In this document: piece by piece, positions 7,613-42,931 of the stretch
Numbering within the stretch: the first letter of the stretch is position 1
Layout: each line of letters begins with the position of its first letter
Source of the DNA: Bacteroidaceae bacterium
GTDB lineage: Bacteria > Bacteroidota > Bacteroidia > Bacteroidales > Bacteroidaceae
Length of the DNA stretch: 45,348 nt
Direction of reading: 5' to 3'
Assembly (NCBI GenBank): GCA_017480685.1
Contig: JAFUSD010000126.1
Coordinates: 1 to 45,348 of the forward strand
Made by a program: the position numbers and the translations under genes
Notes under the pieces: model-generated
Seen by the model: only the letters and a program-made list of their open reading frames with translations
Told to the model about the DNA's origin: nothing
Database searches by the model: none

Positions 7613-8329
7613 ATGACAAACCTTAGTGTAAACATAAATAAGGTTGCCACACTTCGAAATGCCCGCGGCGGCAATGAACCCGATGTTGTGGCAGTAGCCC
7701 TGGATTGTGAGCGCTTTGGTGCCGACGGCATCACGGTGCATCCACGGCCCGACGAGCGCCACATACGCTATCAGGATGTGCTCGACCTAAAGCCGCAACT
7801 CAAGACGGAGTTCAACATAGAGGGATATCCGTCAGTTCGTTTCCTCGACCTGGTGTGCAGCGTTGTGCCTACACAGGTGACCTTGGTGCCCGACTCGCCC
7901 GAGCAGATTACTTCAAACTCGGGATGGGACACACGCGCCAACCAGCAGCTGCTTACCGACATTGTGGCGCGGCTGCATGAGCATGAGATTCGTGCATCGA
8001 TTTTCATCGACCCCGTGCCGCAGATGGCTGAATATGCAGCGCTGACCGGTGCCGACCGCATCGAACTGTATACCGAGCCATACGCACGGCTTTACCCTAC
8101 AGACCCTGCCAGTGCAATACGCCCATTCATCGAGACGGCACACGAGGCGCGCTCTTGCGGACTGGCTGTCAACGCCGGGCACGACCTGAGCTTGCGCAAC
8201 CTGGGCTATTTCATCAATGAGATTCCATTCGTGGCTGAGGTGAGCATAGGGCATCAGCTCATCTGCGATGCTCTTTACTTAGGACTGAACGAAACAATTA
8301 AACAATACAAACAACTATGCAAGAATTAA
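7613..8329 (+). CDS. pdxJ: Pyridoxine 5'-phosphate synthase
   Basis: PdxJ condenses 1-deoxyxylulose 5-phosphate with 3-amino-2-oxopropyl phosphate, the last ring-forming step of the DXP-dependent vitamin B6 route. The 238 residues begin [17 protein letters not shown] and include [16 protein letters not shown], the family substrate-binding segment, and [10 protein letters not shown] near the C-terminus. The 3' end overlaps exbB by 13 bases, consistent with cotranscription. The order pdxJ-exbB-exbD-tonB after divergent nadK is familiar in Bacteroidales. Confidence 0.97.
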
Positions 8330-8934
8330 GCATTCTCGAACTGGCCAAGCAGGGCGGATGGATTATGATACTGCTGGCCCTACTTTCAATCGTTGCCGTC
8401 TACATCTTCACCGAGCGTTATCTCGCCATACGCAGTGCAGGAAAGGTAGACAAACTGTTCATGGACCGCATTCGCGACTACATCAAGAATGGTGATGCAC
8501 GCAGTGCAATAAACTACTGCCGAGTGACCAACACCACCACTGCACGCATCATAGAACGCGGAATAAGCCGCATCGGACGGCCCACACCCGAGATTCAGGC
8601 TGCAATCGAAAACAGCGGAAACCTTGAAGTAGCCCTGCTCGAGAAGCGGTTGCCGGTGCTGGCCACAATTGCAAGCGGAGCCCCTATGATTGGATTTCTT
8701 GGCACGGTAATCGGTATGGTCGAAGCATTCTGGCAGATGTCTAACGCCGGAGGAAACCTCGACATCAGTATGCTCTCGAGCGGTATATATCAGGCAATGG
8801 TCACCACCGTAGGTGGACTCATCGTCGGCATTGCGGCACTGTTTGCCTACAACTACCTGGTGGCTAAGGTAGACGGAGTGGTGAACGAGATAGAACGCGA
8901 ATCGATGGCGTTCATGGACCTCATCAACGAATAA
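8317..8934 (+). CDS. exbB: MotA/TolQ/ExbB proton-channel family protein
   Basis: The 205-residue inner-membrane protein has three hydrophobic segments: [17 protein letters not shown] near 15-32, [17 protein letters not shown] near 118-135, and [17 protein letters not shown] near 162-178. Members form the pentameric channel that uses the proton motive force to energise TonB. ATG 8317 lies inside the end of pdxJ. A 78-bp hairpin repeat follows 23 bases after the stop and separates the gene from exbD. TolQ is the alternative name; the TonB-like gene downstream favours ExbB. Confidence 0.93.
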
Positions 8935-8957: not shown

Positions 8958-9035
8958 AACGTTTTCGTTAAGCCAGATGAGCAGAGAAAGCTTGCTTGCT
9001 CTGCCATGGCGAGAAAACGTCTGAATTTATTCGAA
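8958..9035 (+). repeat. 78-bp hairpin repeat, copy 1 (exbB-exbD gap)
   Basis: This copy is identical base for base to 9464-9541. It can fold as a nested stem: ACGTTTTC pairs with GAAAACGT, CCA with TGG, and GCAGAG with CTCTGC around a 12-base loop. It lies in the same orientation as copy 2, inside the operon. Confidence 0.95.
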
Positions 9036-9050
9036 CCATAATACATCATA

Positions 9051-9464
9051 ATGATTAAGCGCAGAACAAAAATAAGCCCCACTTTCTCCATGTCGTCGAT
9101 GACCGACATCATATTCCTGCTCCTCATCTTCTTCATGATAACCAGCACGATGGTGGCGCCAAATGCCATAAAGGTGCTGCTGCCGCAAAGCAAGAAGCAG
9201 ACAGCAGTGAAGGCTGCAAGCCATGTGGTAATCGACAAAGACCTCAACATGTATGTGGCAGCGGGGGCCGACAAGGAACAACTCGTCAGCCTCGACGAGT
9301 TGCCCCAGGTTTTGGAACAGACCCGGACCGACTCGGCCGACACCTACGTGTCATTGTATGCCGACGAGTCGGTGCCATACCGCAACATAATTGAAGTGCT
9401 CAACGTGGCAAACGAGAACCACTTCAAGATGGTACTCGCCACACGACCGCCCGAGCATAAATGA
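9051..9464 (+). CDS. exbD: ExbD/TolR family biopolymer transporter
   Basis: The 137-residue protein has one N-terminal membrane segment (IIFLLLIFFMITSTMV, about 20-35) preceded by the conserved aspartate in SMTDIIF, which carries the proton in this family. A periplasmic domain follows. It completes the motor with the upstream ExbB. The TGA stop at 9462-9464 ends on the first base of the second 78-bp repeat. Confidence 0.94.
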   Translation: MIKRRTKISPTFSMSSMTDIIFLLLIFFMITSTMVAPNAIKVLLPQSKKQTAVKAASHVVIDKDLNMYVAAGADKEQLVSLDELPQVLEQTRTDSADTYVSLYADESVPYRNIIEVLNVANENHFKMVLATRPPEHK

Positions 9465-9541
9465 ACGTTTTCGTTAAGCCAGATGAGCAGAGAAAGCTTG
9501 CTTGCTCTGCCATGGCGAGAAAACGTCTGAATTTATTCGAA
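9464..9541 (+). repeat. 78-bp hairpin repeat, copy 2 (exbD-tonB gap)
   Basis: This is an exact copy of 8958-9035. The flanking bases differ on both sides, so the identity ends sharply. No target-site duplication or transposase is visible. Confidence 0.95.
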
Positions 9542-9586
9542 GTATCATGTAGCTCTCAATAACTACAGATAAATCTACACCACCCG

Positions 9587-10582
9587 ATGGACAAGAAAAA
9601 ACGCAAGACCATATCGGTAATTGTAACCATAGTGCTACACCTCGCAGTGTTGCTCTTCATGATGCTCATAAGCCTGCACCTTGCACCAACCAATGAGTAT
9701 GAAGACGCTGTGCCGGTGCTCTTGGGCAATGTAGACGATGCGGCAGGTCCGCTCGATGCCGACATGCCCACCCTGCCCGAGACCGACGAGGCAGAGGCGG
9801 AAACTGAGGACACCCCCGAGCCGGAGCCCGAAGTGCAGCAGACCGTCAGCAAGCCGGAACCTCAAGCCACCCCCGAGCCACGCATAACTCAAGACGACGA
9901 ACGCTCTATAGCTGCCGACCGCGAGAAACGCAGGCAGGAGGAGGAATTGCGCCGACGGGCTGCGGCAGAAAATGAACGCCGACGGGCTGCCGAAATAGCT
10001 GAACAGCAGCGCAAGCAAGCCGAGGCAGAAGCAGCACGCAAGCAAGCCGAGGCAGAAGCAGCACGCAAGAAGGCTGAGGCTGAAGCAGCACGCAAGAAGG
10101 CCGAGGAAGAGGCAGCACGCAAGAAGGCTGAGGCAGAAGCAGCACGCAAGAAGGCTGAAGAAGAGGCTGCACGCAGGGCTGCAGTGAACGGACGTGTGGC
10201 AGGAGCATTCGGCAATGGTGCCTCAAACACCGGAAGCGGTAACACAACCGGCAGTGGCAATCAAGGCTCGCCCACAGGAAACAGCAACACCGGAGCCACC
10301 AACGGCAACGGCGGAACCGGCACGGCAGCAGCACAAGTGGGCAGTCGCACCGTGAAGTATCTGCCAAAACCACCATACGACGACCCCACGAGCGAGGGAA
10401 CCGTAGTAGTGGCCATCACCGTCAACTCTGCCGGAGTGGTCACATCGGCCAACGTGAAGAGTGCCACAACCACATCGGCCGTATTACGCAATGCAGCCGT
10501 CAGCACAGCCCGCAGGTCTACATTCTCGGCAGCTGCAGCGAGCGAGAGTGGAACCATAACATACATCTTCAAGCAGAAGTAA
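9587..10582 (+). CDS. tonB: TonB-family energy transducer with long K/E/A-rich coil
   Basis: The 331-residue protein has an N-terminal anchor (ISVIVTIVLHLAVLLFMML, about 9-27), a Pro/Glu-rich stretch, then about 100 residues of Ala/Lys/Glu coil made of AARKKAEEE and AARKKAEAE units. A Gly/Asn/Ser/Thr-rich linker and a short TonB-like C-terminal domain (SEGTVVVAITVNSAGVVTSA, ending YIFKQK) complete it. The coil resembles TolA, but the operon with ExbB/ExbD and many SusC receptors makes TonB the likely role: linking the inner-membrane motor to outer-membrane receptors. The coil repeats are nearly identical at DNA level and may vary in number between strains. Confidence 0.85.
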   Translation: MDKKKRKTISVIVTIVLHLAVLLFMMLISLHLAPTNEYEDAVPVLLGNVDDAAGPLDADMPTLPETDEAEAETEDTPEPEPEVQQTVSKPEPQATPEPRITQDDERSIAADREKRRQEEELRRRAAAENERRRAAEIAEQQRKQAEAEAARKQAEAEAARKKAEAEAARKKAEEEAARKKAEAEAARKKAEEEAARRAAVNGRVAGAFGNGASNTGSGNTTGSGNQGSPTGNSNTGATNGNGGTGTAAAQVGSRTVKYLPKPPYDDPTSEGTVVVAITVNSAGVVTSANVKSATTTSAVLRNAAVSTARRSTFSAAAASESGTITYIFKQK

Positions 10583-10591
10583 GAAAGATGA

Positions 10592-10669
10592 GGATATCCT
10601 CGCGACCCTGCGAGGATATCCTCAACGATGCGCGAGGATATCCTCACAGCCTTGTGAGGATATCCTCGT
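10592..10669. repeat. Palindrome array 1: four GAGGATATCCTC at 22-bp period
   Basis: Perfect 12-bp palindromes lie at 10592, 10614, 10636 and 10658, exactly 22 bases apart. The spacers are GCGACCCTGC, AACGATGCGC and ACAGCCTTGT. The array starts ten bases after the tonB stop and lies between convergent tonB and gpmI. Adjacent copies could pair as a 12-bp stem with a 10-base loop, and GTTTTC follows the last copy. Confidence 0.97.
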
Positions 10670-10727
10670 TTTCTTTCCCCCTCATCCTCACCCCTCGGAT
10701 AGAGTCATGTCATGTCGTTATGACACA

Positions 10728-17045: not shown

Positions 17046-17426
17046 ATGAAACGTACTGTCTATATAGTGCTTATGGCTGTCATTGTGTTTGCCGGCCTCT
17101 GGTCACGCCGCGTGGCATGGGTGCCGGCGGGGATGGGCGATGCCTTGTGGGCCATGCTCATGTATTGTCTCTGGCGTGTGGTGTTCATACGCCGTTCGCT
17201 GCGGTGGGTTGCCTTGTGCAGTCTGGCTGCATGCTATGCCGTGGAGTTCTCGCAGCTCATAAGGTGGCCGTGGCTCGTGAGTTTCCGCTCTACTGCCGTG
17301 GGACATCTGCTGCTGGGGCAGGGATTCCTCTGGACCGACCTCGTGGCCTACACGGCGGGCATTGTCTTCATCTACACGGTCACCCACTGTGTGGCCGAGC
17401 TGGTGTGGCTCAGACGTAGTGAATGA
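17046..17426 (+). CDS. DUF2809 family membrane protein
   Basis: The 126-residue protein is mostly hydrophobic, with about four membrane segments (VYIVLMAVIVFAGLW near 5-19, then segments near 34, 57 and 100). The order AGMGDALWAMLMYCLWR, then VEFSQL, then GHLLLGQGFLWTDLVAYTAG fits DUF2809, a small inner-membrane family with no known role. It is divergent from tyrS and ends six bases before palindrome array 2. I see no clear promoter of its own. Confidence 0.75.
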   Translation: MKRTVYIVLMAVIVFAGLWSRRVAWVPAGMGDALWAMLMYCLWRVVFIRRSLRWVALCSLAACYAVEFSQLIRWPWLVSFRSTAVGHLLLGQGFLWTDLVAYTAGIVFIYTVTHCVAELVWLRRSE

Positions 17427-17431
17427 AAAAT

Positions 17432-17509
17432 GAGGATATCCTCGCGACCTTGTGAGGATATCCTCAACAGCCTGCGAGGATATCCTCAATGCTTGTTGAG
17501 GATATCCTC
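17432..17509. repeat. Palindrome array 2: four GAGGATATCCTC at 22-bp period
   Basis: Perfect copies lie at 17432, 17454, 17476 and 17498. The spacers are GCGACCTTGT, AACAGCCTGC and AATGCTTGTT. The first spacer differs from the first spacer of array 1 at two positions, and both arrays are preceded by AT and followed by GTTTTC. The array fills most of the 113-base gap between the convergent DUF2809 and aminopeptidase genes. Confidence 0.97.
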
Positions 17510-17539
17510 GTTTTCATGCAGGCCTGCATGCGTGTCGGG

Positions 17540-35731: not shown

Positions 35732-36162
35732 TCTCTGTTTGTTTTAAGTTAATAATAGTTATTGGTTTGTGTCTCGATTTTGTTTATAGTAAACTATTGC
35801 ACTGCGGTTGCCCTGCGGAGGCGAGCGCCGGAGGGAGAGGCTGGCGCACCGACAGTTCATTCATCTTACACCTTATTATATTATTACGCGCACGACTGCC
35901 ACCGCCACACTACGCAGTGTTTTTCGCTGCATTTTTACCTTTTGGGGGGCAAATTTAAGAAATTTTTCTTAAACAATCATTAAATTCTCTTAATAAAATG
36001 CGTTATTTAACATTTTGCCTCACAAATTGAAAGAAAACGCTTCCATTTTGTTACGAACTAAGGCAGAAATAAAACAAAATGATTTTAATAACTGTTAAAA
36101 AACCAACCTCGTGATTCAACACCTGCGCGCGCAACAACGACTCAACGCTGCCGAGGGAAAAC
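35732..36162 (-). promoter_or_regulatory. Upstream region of the susC operon
   Basis: On the minus strand a -7 element TAAATTTG lies at 35957-35950, without a clear -33 box. It would give a GC-rich leader of about 210 bases. No gene is visible, although short reading frames exist. Confidence 0.5.
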
Positions 36163-36284
36163 GACGATATCCTCACAGGGCGATGAGGATATCCTCACAA
36201 GGCGACGACGATATCCTCACAAGGCGACGACGATATCCTCACAGGGCGACGACGATATCCTCACAGGGCGACGACGATATCCTC
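36163..36284. repeat. Palindrome array 3: six units at 22-bp period, mostly GACGATATCCTC
   Basis: Units start at 36163, 36185, 36207, 36229, 36251 and 36273. Only the unit at 36185 is the perfect palindrome GAGGATATCCTC; the other five read GACGATATCCTC. The spacers are nearly constant (ACAGGGCGAC or ACAAGGCGAC, once ending GAT). It lies between the susC upstream region and the 3' end of the giant gene. Confidence 0.95.
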
Positions 36285-36415
36285 ACAAGGCGCTTCGTCT
36301 GGTTAGCACATTTGCCACACACCTATATATTATTTATTTTTGCTGTCCGGTAACACTTTTGAGCAATCACTATTCATTATTATTGCTATTTCGTCTCCTT
36401 TGTGTAGAGGGGATA

Positions 36416-42367: not shown

Positions 42368-42716
42368 GATGTTTGTTGTTTAAAGTTGTTAATAAATATT
42401 TTGGTTTTAAGTTGTATTTTTTTTCAGCCTTTCCGGCGTTTTGCCGCTGGACTTGCCGGTAGGTTGCCGCGGTGTAGCACTCATGTACGCACGCGATACG
42501 CGAACCTTAATTTATACGTGTACACGCACAAATTGCTTGCAAATATAGGTTTTTTTAAGAAAAGCAACAAACTTTTTAAGAGAAAAATACGCTTTTTGAA
42601 GTAAAAAAACAGAAATTGGGCATTTTACACCACTGTTGGAAGTCAACACAGCCGGCGCGAGTCACAAGACGACACCCGACGAAGGGACAACACCAACCGC
42701 CTTTGTCTCCATTTGC
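42368..42716 (-). promoter_or_regulatory. Promoter and leader of the giant surface-protein gene
   Basis: On the minus strand TTTG (42571-42568), 20 bases, then TATATTTG (42547-42540). The leader of about 165 bases is GC-rich and can fold, for example CGGC-AAAAC-GCCG near 42435-42450. Positions 42572-42716 hold no visible gene. Confidence 0.65.
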
Positions 42717-42794
42717 GAGGATATCCTCAACATGCTGCGAGGATATCCTCAACACACCGCGAGGATATCCTCAACAGGCCGCGAGGATATCCTC
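42717..42794. repeat. Palindrome array 4: four GAGGATATCCTC at 22-bp period
   Basis: Perfect copies lie at 42717, 42739, 42761 and 42783. The spacers are AACATGCTGC, AACACACCGC and AACAGGCCGC, all beginning AACA and ending GC. The array lies between the divergent giant gene and fhs. Confidence 0.97.
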
Positions 42795-42931
42795 ACACGA
42801 CGGTGCCCCCACACCCCATTGTGGAGCACATTGCAGTATGCGCCCCGAAAAGACATGCCGCAACGGCGTAAAACATTGGTCTTTTACGTAAAAACATGGC
42901 GTGCAGCCTATGCTATTCCGATAATTATTTG

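Follow-up and report, generated by a model that had tools for sequence, protein, structure and literature searches.

In the window, the whole 45,348-nucleotide stretch of Bacteroidaceae DNA that was analysed, both intercistronic gaps of an exbB-exbD-tonB operon contain the same mobile REP-like repeat. Judged from sequence, the two copies are very probably separate recent insertions of a non-coding mobile palindromic repeat, which would have landed twice, independently, after the split from the sampled relatives. Copy 1 (8958..9035, + strand; 101.6 bits for R1) occupies the exbB-exbD gap and copy 2 (9464..9541, + strand) the exbD-tonB gap. The analysis confirmed what the first-pass annotation had described, namely two 78-bp copies identical at 78/78 positions, both in sense orientation. 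Their flanks are unrelated and diverge from the first base outside the element on either side. The operon, listed with pdxJ at the locus, consists of exbB (MotA/TolQ/ExbB family; 8317..8934, +), exbD (9051..9464, +) and a tonB-like gene (9587..10582, +; TonB_C E 1.7e-4, slightly below the Pfam cut-off), separated by 116 nt and 122 nt respectively. Copy 1 starts 23 nt 3' of the exbB stop codon, and copy 2 overlaps exbD by a single base, the final one of its stop codon. Misassembly of the operon was ruled out, as the gene order agrees with that of relatives.

Whether related species carry one, two or no copies had been raised at the outset, and within the genus the answer was none. Thirteen genus relatives with an exbD gene were all read across both gaps and 0/13 carried either copy; most have gaps of only a few bases or an overlap between exbD and tonB. 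Because the element is absent from all thirteen, both operon copies are best seen as later additions; less simply, it would have been lost thirteen times.

In each unit a short hairpin comes after a long one, with AA at each end; the unit measures about 76 bp (78 bp when AA is counted at both ends). The terminal AA dinucleotides lie at 8958..8959 and 9034-9035 (+) in copy 1 and at 9464-9465 and 9540-9541 in copy 2. The long hairpin (8959..9020, +; 9465-9526 in copy 2) contains an outer stem CGTTTTC/GAAAACG, an internal loop GTTAA/GA, an inner stem and an apical GCTTGC, with the internal and apical loops being conserved. The short 3' hairpin TGAATTTATTCGA (9022..9034, +; 9528-9540 in copy 2), helix 3 of the covariation test, is replaced in other subfamilies by GGATGAAATCC. 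The fold is stable (-26.2 kcal/mol, z -3.2 against dinucleotide shuffles). The structure is larger than the nested stem described by the first-pass annotation: the short second hairpin, which covariation supports, follows the long stem. Across 15 diverse copies standard pairs fill 92% of pair cells, both sides have changed at 10/23 pairs, compensatory cells changed on both sides number 30 compared with 9.7 in shuffles, and pairing drops to 34-55% in slid controls; as the same 15-copy alignment served in part for fitting the structure by eye, these counts are biased towards the model, and the shuffles leave relatedness in. An Rfam search of the window gave no match at gathering score, and a RydC match (E 1.5, far under its cut-off) was dismissed as chance. 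Loci L038, L040 and L049 contain composite elements, reaching about 180 nt in length, in which members of a second hairpin family are nested inside the first.

The element is dispersed through the genome. The further copies that the first-pass annotation had proposed to look for were found: with a threshold of E below 0.01 the same genome yielded 19 matches, one of which is truncated at the end of a contig. Ten are 78/78 identical, several have diverged, and C215, C2 and C194 each contain a tandem pair. A covariance model recovered these elements again and added one weak match, at C97, to a related family. Matches to R1 were present in 9/17 genus genomes and in 90/301 sampled family genomes from 16/30 genera. 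The richest family genomes have no fewer than 15 copies; copy counts per genome are minima, 15 candidates having been scored for each. Named carriers include Prevotella conceptionensis, Xylanibacter rodentium, Hoylesella loescheii, Palleniella and Leyella. In an order-wide sample, R1 matched in three genomes only, apart from the one studied here. Of 25 matching plasmids, mostly of Bacteroides and Parabacteroides, 24 carry a copy whose long hairpin is 89% identical; no mobilising gene adjoins these plasmid copies, and recombinase genes are at distances of about 5 kb or more. Among 128 non-redundant copies, 116 lie outside ORFs and some lie inside, and the neighbouring genes are unrelated.

Copies also tend to lie close together. 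Two non-tandem pairs less than 600 bp apart were counted in this genome against 0.05 expected (P about 0.001, descriptive only, since the operon pair itself prompted the question). Given this excess, the double insertion at exbB-exbD-tonB is in keeping with a tendency of the element to cluster locally, not with a requirement of the operon. The close arrangements in this genome are one inverted pair, one direct pair and three direct tandems. The inverted copies (L010 and L012, C4:1402-1849) surround about 290 bp upstream of ruvA, and this pair could in principle invert. Comparison of genome G014 with the present genome showed copies in the same intergenic regions and in opposite orientation (L025 and L033 versus L013 and L010), near der and behind a FecCD-type permease gene, as if these regions had been reused.

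Filled and empty sites were then compared at other loci. One copy in this genome lies within a TPR-like ORF; in genome G015 the same gene is uninterrupted and reads GGCG-TT-TGAC, giving a net gain of 72 of 74 bases with one TT/AA common to both, and G014 is also empty at this site. The copies at L002 and at L025 of G014 sit in a second repeat (AAAAGCG-AA-CGAAGTTAA), the empty form of which is present near der in the genome studied here. In these pairs the empty sites have one AA and the filled sites have AA at both ends, a pattern that fits both a target duplication and a fixed dinucleotide; tandem units have one AA in common. The empty-site screen was filtered for tandem copies, and listed pairs that were repeats or self-hits were left out of the count. 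For 107 non-tandem copies the target consensus was the palindrome-like AAAnG-AA-CnTTT, with G at -1 in 73/107, C at +1 in 74/107, an A-rich left arm and a T-rich right arm, although this flank signal may derive partly from other repeats, since elements often land in or beside them. The exbD-tonB junction (AAATG-AA) is consistent with the target pattern, and no close empty site was found for either operon copy. No replication-strand bias, as lagging-strand targeting would produce, was observed by local GC skew (51/112 positive, p 0.40). Taken together, the dispersed identical copies, the exact filled and empty sites and the tandem arrays lend good support to the suggestion, made in the first-pass annotation, of recent copying of a REP-like mobile element.

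The element may, tentatively, belong to a class of bacterial mobile hairpins of its own, made up of non-coding units with two hairpins each. Prevotella-like bacteria would contain two or more related families of it, mobilised in trans by a non-Y1 enzyme that joins the ends at AA in a palindromic target. An enzyme of a known type, a recombinase with a 2-bp overlap (serine or IS110-type), could act in trans on a 76-bp circle and cross over at the AA dinucleotide; the single AA of empty sites, the AA at both element ends, the palindrome-like target and the AA common to tandem units all agree with this. Nevertheless, it appears unlikely, as neither Resolvase (PF00239, serine recombinase) nor IS110 (PF01548) was detected in this 90% complete genome or in high-copy G015, and ORF clustering over 230 loci found no transposase or recombinase family recurring beside the copies.

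It is quite unlikely that a RAYT (Y1 tyrosine transposase), encoded in the unassembled tenth of the genome, moves the element as a classical REP. The element does consist of short dispersed hairpins that are mostly intergenic, tandem and clustered, and the RAYTs of subclass 2.6 in Bacteroidetes have atypical structures at their flanks (PMC6006769). The RAYT-type transposase envisaged by the first-pass annotation was, however, not detected: Y1 transposases gave 0 matches in this genome, a 90% complete draft in which absence of a gene is no proof. Across 301 genomes, Y1 showed no association with the element, being present in 33/90 element-positive and 67/211 element-negative genomes (p 0.42); Y1 was the only gene family for which association was computed. 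Moreover, 12/23 high-copy genomes are without a detected Y1, the best Y1 genes of the family are IS200-type or subclass 1.2 by motifs, and R1 has no matches at 30 Y1 loci.

Comparison with REP/REPIN and RAYT systems leads to the same view. Like them, the element is short, structured, dispersed, sometimes tandem or clustered and sometimes in ORFs; it is a short palindromic hairpin in several copies (19 matches being at the low end) and mainly extragenic (116/128). Unlike them, it measures about 76 bp, has two hairpins per unit, reaches copy numbers in the tens or fewer and uses a symmetric target with AA. The GTAG head is absent, with CGTC following the stem in the subfamily of the window and CGAAGG and others elsewhere; the right flank is constrained as well, and no cognate RAYT or Y1 was detected in the 90% complete genome. 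The element is not, on the evidence here, a RAYT-linked REP.

Other known systems share some of these features. Another class of hairpin repeat likewise has no known associated transposase, is present in Bacteroidetes and other phyla and occurs in part within ORFs, but its stems of 8-9 bp, loops of 4-5 nt and CCA-like tails differ from a long hairpin of about 60 nt, and CGTC is confined here to the window's own subfamily, others having CGAAGG. MITEs such as BrickBuilt of Porphyromonas gingivalis (PMC4596501) are likewise small, mobile and non-coding, and are present in Bacteroidales. The terminal inverted repeats of BrickBuilt match IS5-family elements, and it contains an internal 23-nt minisatellite; neither was seen in the element, where AACGTTTTCG and TTATTCGAA, the two ends, do not form inverted repeats. 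Compared by eye, integron attC sites resemble the element in forming a folded single-strand hairpin with an internal loop and in their AAC/GTT ends, whereas the element occurs in both orientations at scattered loci without cassette ORFs, and the R''/R' pair was not found in its own subfamily.

The first-pass annotation had also proposed that the hairpins set the ExbB:ExbD:TonB ratio. That they are regulatory hairpins kept by selection for this role, protecting upstream 3' ends or causing processing, is very unlikely. The stable fold and the sense orientation of both operon copies accord with such a role, and effects on transcripts have been reported for intergenic REPs in E. coli (PMC12306157). 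A general sense bias points the same way: of the 128 non-redundant copies, those between co-directional genes are sense in 28 cases and antisense in 13 (p 0.028), and sense copies located no more than 60 nt from a gene end outnumber mirror cases by 27 to 8 for starts and again for stops. Genes were identified here with a simple ORF rule, and copies from the same genome are not independent. Plain random insertion does not predict this dominance near genes, which could reflect selection against antisense copies or RNA-level effects. In addition, three species of another genus (G101, G130, G156) carry an orthologous related copy, in sense orientation, 3 nt past the stop codon of another exbB. Divergence of this copy between species pairs is, however, 2.5, 7.5 and 10%, compared with 3.2, 9.0 and 7.9% at exbB third positions; the copy drifts at about the synonymous rate, so that no strong constraint is seen at these few sites. 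As a conserved function the proposal is unsupported, since the operon lacks the copies in all thirteen genus relatives and copies elsewhere adjoin unrelated genes or lie inside ORFs. No terminator-like T run follows either copy, which also ruled out an intrinsic terminator. With respect to a cis-regulatory RNA family, no constant gene class adjoins the copies and Rfam gave no match. Thus a conserved stoichiometry device is not supported, and an incidental effect of the copies on expression is possible.

The 78/78 identity on its own could also come from gene conversion, and ten such copies exist in the genome (gene conversion is raised for REPs in the title of a review cited in PMC12306157), but homogenisation of old repeats is highly improbable as the explanation, because the operon in relatives is without the element, the filled and empty sites of other copies are exact, identity breaks off sharply at the element ends, and conversion, which might act in addition, is unable to create new sites.

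On the insertion reading, each operon copy would correspond to one insertion of the roughly 76-bp non-coding mobile palindromic repeat, in two independent events after the lineage left its sampled relatives. The compensatory changes in structure between subfamilies, together with an orthologous copy drifting at about the synonymous rate, suggest that an enzyme acting in trans would recognise the folded hairpins; it would probably be other than a Y1 transposase. The outcome for the operon would be two longer, structured gaps (116 and 122 nt), with any change in protein ratio as a by-product.

Several further features of the locus were observed. A short reading frame (MARKRLNLFE...; 9006-9041 and 9512-9562) starts in each copy and ends 9 nt before exbD or 24 nt before tonB, and these frames are candidate leader peptides. 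Within the tonB-like gene a 27-bp tandem repeat (9950-10198) encodes an Ala/Lys/Glu-rich stretch. A second repeat in the window (10583-10673, 17425-17537, 36156-36290 and 42710-42822) has a 22-bp period of the palindrome GAGGATATCCTC, a unit bearing a faint resemblance to the BrickBuilt 23-mer; its copy 3' of tonB forms a terminator-like hairpin of 17 pairs with a T-rich tail (10632-10669).

The element also has relatives. A second family of the same layout (AAAATGCGATTAAG...GCTTGC...GCATTTTGGGCGAAAGCCAA) was reached through weak R1 matches in the genus, and a model of it, built without window sequence, detects both window copies at E 0.005. It has matches in 16/17 genus genomes, up to 62 per genome, although some of the weaker matches may belong to the first family. 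Loci L060-L077, and genomes G003, G013 and others, contain this related two-hairpin family.

These results attribute a conspicuous feature of a nutrient-uptake operon to mobile DNA, and they point to an abundant repeat superfamily, with no Rfam match and no detected transposase, in Prevotella-like bacteria of the gut, mouth and rumen. With exact empty sites and a structure supported by covariation, the search for the enzyme is now a concrete problem. Because the repeats lengthen intercistronic gaps, they may tune operons by accident.
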